A stretch of 64,000 bases of DNA from Humisphaera borealis (GTDB taxonomy: Bacteria > Planctomycetota > Phycisphaerae > Tepidisphaerales > Tepidisphaeraceae): the NCBI RefSeq assembly GCF_015169395.1, contig NZ_CP063458.1, positions 6,138,001 through 6,202,000 of the forward strand, written 5' to 3'. The position numbers and the translations under genes were made by a program. Under the pieces are notes generated by a model. The model was not told where the DNA came from. It searched no databases and was given only the letters and a program-made list of their open reading frames with translations. Positions 43,857-60,910 of the stretch are shown piece after piece. Numbering within the stretch: position 1 is the stretch's first letter; each line of letters starts with the position of its first letter.

Positions 43857-44159
43857 ATGTCCCGTTTCGGTCGTTGTCTTGCTTCTCTCAGCCGAACCGC
43901 GCTGGCCGCGATGATCGCCGTCTCGGTGATCGGATGCCAATCCGGCAACACAACGGCCAAGGAAGAGATGCTTCCGCCGGGCAAGCTTGAGATGCTCAAC
44001 AGCGGCGACAAGCTCATCAACGAAGGCGAAGACCTCAAGGATCAGGCCAAGAAACTGCAAGCCGAAGGCAAAGACGGGGCAGAACTGGCCCGCCAGGGGG
44101 ACGCCAAGATCGCCGAAGGGGAGGCGATCAAGAAGAAGGCGATGTCGATGAAGCAGTAG
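43857..44159 (+). CDS. Small predicted lipoprotein
   Basis: 100 residues. The hydrophobic segment ALAAMIAVSVIGC ends in a lipobox with Cys27. The mature part is highly charged and helical (KLEMLNSGDKLINEGEDLKD, then QAKKLQAEGKDGAELARQGD) and looks like a coiled coil, reminiscent of Lpp-like or YgdR-like small lipoproteins. Function unknown. ATG 43857 follows AAGGAG. Confidence 0.8.
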   Translation: MSRFGRCLASLSRTALAAMIAVSVIGCQSGNTTAKEEMLPPGKLEMLNSGDKLINEGEDLKDQAKKLQAEGKDGAELARQGDAKIAEGEAIKKKAMSMKQ

Positions 44160-44188: not shown

Positions 44189-44267
44189 AGAGAACGGCGA
44201 CATTATCGGCACCTGCGGGTTCGGAAGTCCGATAACGTTCGCCGGCGGTCTTTTTGCATGGTCCGCT

Positions 44268-44340
44268 CCGATAACAGTGGCGTGATGCAACGCGGCTTGT
44301 CAGCCGCACCGGTTCCGGGGGAACCGCTGGCGTCACGCCG
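44268..44340 (+). ncRNA. Candidate three-helix leader RNA with promoter-like element
   Basis: TCCGATAAC at 44268-44276 (and again at 44229-44237) is followed at once by a compact structure. P1 is GGCGTGA/TCACGCC (44280-44286 with 44334-44340). P2 is GCGGCT-TGTC-AGCCGC (44293-44308). P3 is CGGTTCC-GGG-GGAACCG (44311-44327). All three stems are perfect. The structure ends 23 bases before ATG 44364 and its ribosome site CGGAG. A cis-regulatory RNA or riboswitch-like leader is inferred; it does not match a riboswitch class I can name. Confidence 0.5.
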
Positions 44341-44363
44341 CGATGGACATCGGAGCCCGACGC

Positions 44364-45224
44364 ATGCGACCGTTTCGTAAAACCCACCTCGCCATTCGAT
44401 CGATCGCCGGCTGCCTTGCGACGGCAATGCTGGCCGCGCCCGCCTGGGCCGGCATCGTCACCTACCGGCAGGGGGAGCAGGACTTCGCGTCCGGCGCAGG
44501 CCCGATACTGGTCACCGACGCCGTACTGGCCGGCGCCAATGAAGCGGCTCCTTTCGACGGCTCGGTCTTCGGCGACGACCGCCGATCCGCCTTCGGCCGC
44601 ATCCGATTCACCTACCAGCTCCCCAAGGAAACCACCGGCGACGGCAGCCTGACGTTGGGCCTGATTGGCCTGGATTCCCCTCCGGACTCCAAACCCACCG
44701 TCAAACTGTTCCTCGACGGCATCGAACAACCCAACGCCCCCTTCGCAGGCGTGTCGTCACCCCTTTTCCGGTCGTCGGCCAGCGTGGTGTCGGTGCCGGT
44801 GCCGGCGGCGCTGCTGGAAGACGGCGAAGTGGAAATCCTCGTCAAAGCCTTCCGACGCGGACCCGGATATCCGGGCAACGCCATCAGCATCGATTTTTCC
44901 ACGTTGACGGTCATGAACGTCAACACCATCCCCGGCGATGGCACCAACGGCGGCGGGACCGATCAGCCGGGCGGCGGTGGCAACGGCGGTGGAGGCAATG
45001 GGGGCGGTGACAACGGAGGCACACCTGGTGGTGGCGGCGGCGGGGGTAACAATGGGGGCGGCGGCGGTGTCGTTCACCCCCCGACGGCGATCCCGCTTCC
45101 ACCGGCCGTCTGGGCAGGCGGTGTCGGACTCCTGATGGCCGCATTCGCGCGAAAAAAGAAGCTCAACCGCGGCGCGTTTCCCTCGATCTCACGCGCTCGG
45201 CGACACTCGGCGTTCCAACGGTAG
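44364..45224 (+). CDS. Exosortase-type (PEP-CTERM/VPLPA-like) anchored surface protein
   Basis: 286 residues from ATG 44364 (MRPFRKTHLA), preferred over ATG 44343 because CGGAG precedes it. Signal peptide ends near PAWAG. A beta-rich globular domain (about 30-190) contains LVTDAVLAGANEAAPF and VKLFLDGIEQPNAP. A Gly/Asn linker of about 45 residues follows. The C-terminus is AIPLPPAVWAGGVGLLMAAF then RKKK, a PEP-CTERM/VPLPA-type sorting signal: motif, membrane segment, basic cluster. About 20 further residues (NRGAFPSISRARRHSAFQR) follow the basic cluster, which is unusual since such signals normally end there. No exosortase gene is seen in the window. Confidence 0.82.
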   Translation: MRPFRKTHLAIRSIAGCLATAMLAAPAWAGIVTYRQGEQDFASGAGPILVTDAVLAGANEAAPFDGSVFGDDRRSAFGRIRFTYQLPKETTGDGSLTLGLIGLDSPPDSKPTVKLFLDGIEQPNAPFAGVSSPLFRSSASVVSVPVPAALLEDGEVEILVKAFRRGPGYPGNAISIDFSTLTVMNVNTIPGDGTNGGGTDQPGGGGNGGGGNGGGDNGGTPGGGGGGGNNGGGGGVVHPPTAIPLPPAVWAGGVGLLMAAFARKKKLNRGAFPSISRARRHSAFQR

Positions 45225-60363: not shown

Positions 60364-60910
60364 ACGTCGGATTGTACCAGAGGGTTTGATCCACGAATGA
60401 ACACGAATGATCTCAACACGGCCTGGCGGCACCCGGAATGAAGAGAACACGAAGGCGCGAAGGCACGAAGAAAGCGCGAAGGTTGTCGAATCCGTGGATT
60501 GGGCTATCCCACGGTGTATTCCGCTCACTGTGCGTTGGATTGCCCGCCAAGAGCGCCAAGAAGCCAAGTACGCCAGGAAGCAGATTCTCTTGGCATACTT
60601 GGCTTCTTGGCGCTCTTGGCGTTGAGATCGCTCTGCGTGGCGAACCCGAAAACATTAGGCTGTCCACTGATTCGACAACCTTCGCGCTTTCTTCGTGCCT
60701 TCGCGCCTTCGTGTTCTCTTCGTTTCGGGTTCGGCCAGGCCGCCTTGGAGTGCCTTCGCGTTCACCCTGATCTGGTAAACTTTTAGCAACGCCGGTCGAC
60801 GCATGAACATTGCCGAAACTTTTCGTGCCGACCGGCGTCAACGAGATTAGATTGTTTTGCCGAACGGCCCGACCCCGGGCTGCCACACTTCGCTTCAGAA
60901 GGAGCACGAG
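60364..60910. other. Gene-free region with nested inverted repeats
   Basis: About 550 bp without a credible gene, largely occupied by the nested hairpins at 60441-60720 and a lone CACGAATGAACACGAAT arm near 60392. From 60722 to 60910 is a leader with AGAAGGAGCACGAG just before the ATG at 60911; nothing else is recognised. Confidence 0.6.
60441..60720. repeat. Nested inverted repeats: 52-nt perfect outer arms, 31-nt inner arms
   Basis: Outer arms 60441-60492 and 60669-60720 are exact reverse complements over 52 nt, made of GAAGGC/GCGAAGG/CACGAAG-type words. Inner arms 60545-60575 and 60591-60621 (CGCCAAGAGCGCCAAGAAGC...) have one mismatch in 31. The inner and outer words are different. It is the longest perfect hairpin in the window. 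Confidence 0.97.

Follow-up and report, generated by a model that had tools for sequence, protein, structure and literature searches.

A GC-rich foldback in the leader of a putative exosortase-sorted surface-protein gene of Humisphaera borealis, next to a conserved promoter-like motif

A stable three-stem fold precedes a secreted-protein gene

The window analysed here is a 64,000-nucleotide stretch of the genome of the planctomycete Humisphaera borealis (contig NZ_CP063458.1). On its forward strand, a gene at 44364..45224 (+) encodes a predicted secreted protein with a signal peptide, a Gly-rich linker and the C-terminal tail IPLPPAVWAGGVGLLMAAFARKKK, which is PEP/VPLPA-CTERM-like, and this protein has homologs in other genomes. 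A GGAG ribosome-binding site (44352..44355, +), recognized from sequence, is located 8 nt 5' of the ATG at 44364. Farther upstream are two copies of a promoter-like element, TCCGATAAC, at 44267..44275 (+, near copy) and 44228..44236 (+, far copy), and an inverted CCGATAA at 44203..44209 (-; TTATCGG on the plus strand). Just upstream of the gene there is also a small Cys-containing lipoprotein-like ORF (43857-44159) with weak similarity to the SoxAX-binding protein SAXB (E 0.0074, below cut-off).

The gene had been described as encoding an exosortase-anchored protein. The protein combines a signal peptide with a P-x-P, hydrophobic and basic C-terminus, as exosortase substrates do, and the genome encodes two exosortases (C1:1965415 and C1:4121382). 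The tail shares the P-x-P, the hydrophobic stretch and the basic end with PEP-CTERM/VPLPA-CTERM substrates (TIGR03370 and relatives), but it has the form PxPPA[VA] and scores below the curated cut-offs: no curated CTERM model matches the protein at cut-off, TIGR03370 finds no VPLPA tail over its cut-off, and searches of Pfam and NCBIfam gave no match. Sorting by an exosortase is plausible from the tail and the two exosortases, but it is not backed by a curated CTERM match.

Between the near promoter-like copy and the ribosome site, RNA folding predicts a three-way junction (44277..44341, +). P1 (44277-44288/44330-44341) has 12 bp, of which 10 are Watson-Crick and 2 G-U; P2 (44292-44297/44302-44307) has 6 bp and P3 (44310-44316/44320-44326) 7 bp. 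The stretch 44268-44345 adopts a single dominant structure (MFE -42.5 kcal/mol, z -3.91), a stability matched by 0 of 200 shuffles. The three-stem fold is real and stable. The three perfect stems of 7, 6 and 7 bp within 61 nt that had been reported are therefore present, and the 7-bp P1 of that report (44279-44285 with 44333-44339) is the uninterrupted Watson-Crick core of the 12-bp helix. The near TCCGATAAC stops one base short of P1, and 10 nt separate the 3' arm of P1 from GGAG. No intrinsic terminator of the upstream gene was found here.

The junction forms the tip of a longer imperfect foldback (about 44244..44374, +; MFE -74.8, z -5.3, 0/300 shuffles) that takes in the ribosome site and the start codon. 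In its outer arms, an inverted repeat (I7), GCTCCGAT at 44265-44272 pairs with ATCGGAGC at 44349-44356, and the latter contains the ribosome site. When the core was held fixed, the natural outer arms beat flank shuffles in 498 of 500 cases and natural gene flanks in 474 of 485. Elsewhere in the window (60547-60619), a near-perfect long foldback, in which 27 nt separate CCAAGAGCGCCAAGAAGCCAAGT from its exact inverse, lies upstream of a called gene.

The fold is probably confined to one lineage

Homologs of the protein occur in one congener (65% identity) and in five genomes that belong to a single genus of a different family within the class; two more distant ones are from Nitrosomonas. An alignment-based search returned eight loci, namely the six genes already found and the two Nitrosomonas loci, which have no exact CCGATAA; a single-sequence protein search of the relatives' contigs returned no homolog. 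The fold is absent at the congeneric ortholog and at the five other-family homologs (0/6), the congener being represented by one genome of 65% completeness. In the congener the z-score is +0.74 for the leader and -0.15 for the longer stretch, and in the five other-family homologs the longer stretch ranges from +0.4 to -2.7 with different shapes.

The original prediction could match the fold to no riboswitch, and this is borne out by a search of the window with the Rfam covariance models, in which no family matched at the gathering cut-off. The covariance search upstream of homologous genes that it proposed gave no convincing match at the homologs or in 60 relatives. A model of the fold, built from one sequence, recovered at the homolog loci only itself, its own other strand and chance matches; the best matches in the relatives (G025:C141, E 0.011 per genome; G001:C873, E 0.085) are not at known homologs. 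DNA-level matches in relatives were set aside as short chance matches. No second copy of the fold turned up that could be compared for covariation in P1-P3. The best reading of these comparisons is that the fold is lineage-specific and arose in this lineage.

Strong leader folds are common in the genome

Comparisons within the genome used a sample of 2.86 Mb of its 7.19 Mb, partly contiguous and partly chosen around CCGATAAC sites, in which genes were called by a simple ORF method. The fold occurs in one copy in its genome. A mobile repeat was rejected as its source, given the single copy, a P3 hairpin unit that is unique and a P2 unit found in full once in the 2.86 Mb.

Three perfect adjacent stems had been judged improbable by chance. 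This holds against shuffled sequence (0/200) but not against the genome, where three-way junctions with P1 of at least 7 bp and P2 and P3 of at least 6 bp number 127 in 2.86 Mb on both strands, and where 41 of 2084 gene leaders, taken at the same offset, match or undercut the z of the fold. The fold is thus in the top 2% of leaders and is not alone there. Similarly, the longer stretch reaches z <= -5 in 25 of 900 genes, and foldbacks of at least 20 bp are present before several genes. When P1 is set to at least 12 bp, the same junction search returns only 2 cases in 2.86 Mb.

Strong leader folds being common in this genome, it is very improbable that this is a compact regulatory RNA of an uncharacterised, riboswitch-like kind, built on a three-way junction and limited to this lineage; the fold is compact, very stable and near the start codon, as such an RNA would be, but no homolog carries it, a terminator was not found, and no switch-like alternative pairing was seen in the core folds.

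CCGATAA is conserved upstream of homologous genes

The heptamers within the two identical TCCGATAAC copies start at 44229 and 44268, the near one ending at 44274 and overlapping the outer foldback arm. CCGATAA is exact upstream of four of the six homologs; in the congener it reads CCGATAC and in the sixth homolog TCGATAG, and across all six the distance from motif to start is 63-97 nt. No other 7-mer from upstream of the window gene is common to four of the six homologs; CCGATAA is, with a shuffle probability of 0.002-0.018 in the four regions holding the exact motif, two of which are closely related to each other. At loci L202, L203, L204, L205 and L206, a second short motif (CCCGATTC, CCCGACTC or CCCAATC) stands some 15-20 nt ahead of CCGATAA in 4/5; it is missing in L204 and upstream of the window gene.

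A profile of the PxPPA tail found four strong genes in the genome, and in three of them TCCGATAA lies 75-135 nt upstream. In the fourth (C1:2624135, minus) CCGATAAC is found only within the coding part, and two genes with weak tails (C1:2154309 and C1:3647170) have neither CCGATAAC nor TCCGATAA listed nearby. The suggestion of a promoter next to the fold is thus supported by conservation of CCGATAA upstream of both the other-family homologs and other PxPPA-CTERM genes. By sequence, CCGATAA is a conserved promoter-like motif beside the fold.

Across 47 intergenic sites the context of the motif is G[TG]CCGATAAC. The far window copy, AGTCCGATAAC, fits this genome context (GTCCGATAAC) better than the near copy, GCTCCGATAAC. 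CCGATAA pairs within 150 nt number 13 versus 2.6 expected, in a sample whose partial choice around CCGATAAC may inflate the site counts. Triplets precede three genes (C1:6110868, C1:1732170 and C1:6182364). The window gene is one of these and a gene for a large LEPRxLL-like protein is another, both probably encoding surface proteins.

These clusters bear on a different reading, in which CCGATAA is not a -10 element but an operator. A DNA-binding regulator would then occupy the repeats and the inverted copy, and the fold would simply result from having inverted sites in DNA that is rich in GC. Three copies within 72 nt, one of them inverted, the excess of pairs, the triplets before two other genes and the lack of a -35 box all speak for such an operator. 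Intergenic sites are directional, however, with G at -2 in 68% compared with 32% of coding sites, and the motif, identical to the -10 of sigma-28, also sits before a FliA/WhiG sigma gene. We regard the operator as unlikely, though it is the strongest of the competitors.

Likeness to sigma-28 promoters and the expected transcription start

In E. coli FliA sites the -10 element is GCCGATAA (PMC4183435), and CCGATAA at both 44229 and 44268 is of this type. The genome encodes two FliA/WhiG-family sigma factors above the curated cut-off (C1:2611490 and C1:6490479), and one of the genes (C1:2612242, minus; locus L174), confirmed by NCBIfam, has two upstream CCGATAA copies, which suggests that it may be autoregulated as E. 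coli fliA is. The window elements differ from sigma-28 promoters in lacking the TAAA -35 about 15-16 nt upstream at both copies and in their consensus context, G[TG]CCGATAAC; moreover, the window's flagellin gene has no CCGATAA. The genome has only 5 instances of TAAA-N14-17-CCGATAA, all of them outside the window, and no -35 stands out over the 47 intergenic sites. The motif resembles the sigma-28 -10, and we do not call it a sigma-28 promoter. A limited literature search found no study of a surface-protein promoter of this kind in Phycisphaerae.

A search for sigma-70 promoters at the locus found none. A sigma-54 promoter was considered for GG-N10-GC at 44244-44257 and rejected, as a reading by eye found no such pair in the upstream regions of the homologs.

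Bacterial promoters usually start transcription 6-9 nt past the -10. Should the near CCGATAA, which ends at 44274, be a -10, this spacing predicts that transcription begins within the 5' strand of P1, at about 44281-44283. Folding predicts that RNA from 44280 retains P1 (inner pair 0.98) and RNA from 44283 loses it (0.21). The earlier proposal of a start exactly at P1 accordingly does not fit this spacing, which predicts a start that opens the helix. For the full fold to form, transcription would have to begin farther upstream, for example from the far copy.

Two possible start sites and translation of the gene

Of the two promoter-like copies, which are identical and 39 nt from each other, one lies directly ahead of the outer arm and the other falls within it, an arrangement that would suit a lineage-specific cis-regulatory leader in which the choice between the far and near CCGATAAC sets translation: the long RNA from the far start would bury the ribosome site and ATG, and the short RNA from the near start would be made without the outer arm. 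In the long RNA the outer arm does pair with GGAG and the ATG (SD bases unpaired 0-0.04), and the pairing is less in the short RNAs. The mean accessibility of the start region nevertheless shifts merely from 0.19 to 0.30 (genome mean 0.41), the foldback is not conserved in homologs, and the starts themselves are hypothetical. We consider such a leader improbable. Slimmer still are the chances of its extended form, in which two CCGATAAC promoters would set translation as part of a sigma-28-like CCGATAA regulon that, in this class of planctomycetes, would cover PxPPA-CTERM proteins along with further surface proteins.

A passive leader foldback as the favoured explanation

The explanation that we favour, with a fair measure of reserve, is a lineage-specific GC-rich leader foldback, passive at most, beside a conserved promoter-like element. 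The fold is probably an incidental leader hairpin, because relatives lack it at this gene and many genes of this genome are preceded by strong folds. On this view a stable GC-rich foldback occupies the promoter and the 5' leader of a gene for a secreted, probably exosortase-sorted, surface protein. Transcription would probably proceed from the far or the near CCGATAAC element or from both; these elements are sigma-28 (FliA/WhiG) -10-like, the start and the sigma factor both being predictions. If transcribed, the RNA would fold into a hairpin that may at most slow translation or shield the 5' end, and that would sense nothing specific. A dedicated leader RNA, as originally predicted, is unsupported, as is a regulatory role for it, given the absence of the fold at the ortholog and other homologs, in Rfam and, as far as convincing hits go, in the 60 relatives.

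The feature that goes against an incidental origin is the rarity of junctions with P1 of at least 12 bp and two perfect inner stems; together with outer arms that are better than most flanks, it could hint at selection.

Stable 5'-leader stem-loops are known in bacterial mRNAs, for example in the ompA leader. Like those of the ompA type, the hairpin described here is stable and separates the promoter of a surface-protein gene from its ribosome site; it differs in being part of a longer fold that extends over the ribosome site.

As an RNA, the fold is probably of minor importance, an example of how readily GC-rich genomes yield conspicuous leader folds that last no longer than a single genus. 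CCGATAA is worth more than the fold, as it suggests a sigma-28-type promoter common to exosortase-sorted surface-protein genes of Phycisphaerae.

Upstream regions of the same genome are also strongly enriched in heptamers of the repeat CTGACTACTGACT and CCTCCGTGG, with CTGACTA, for instance, found 27 times versus 3 expected.
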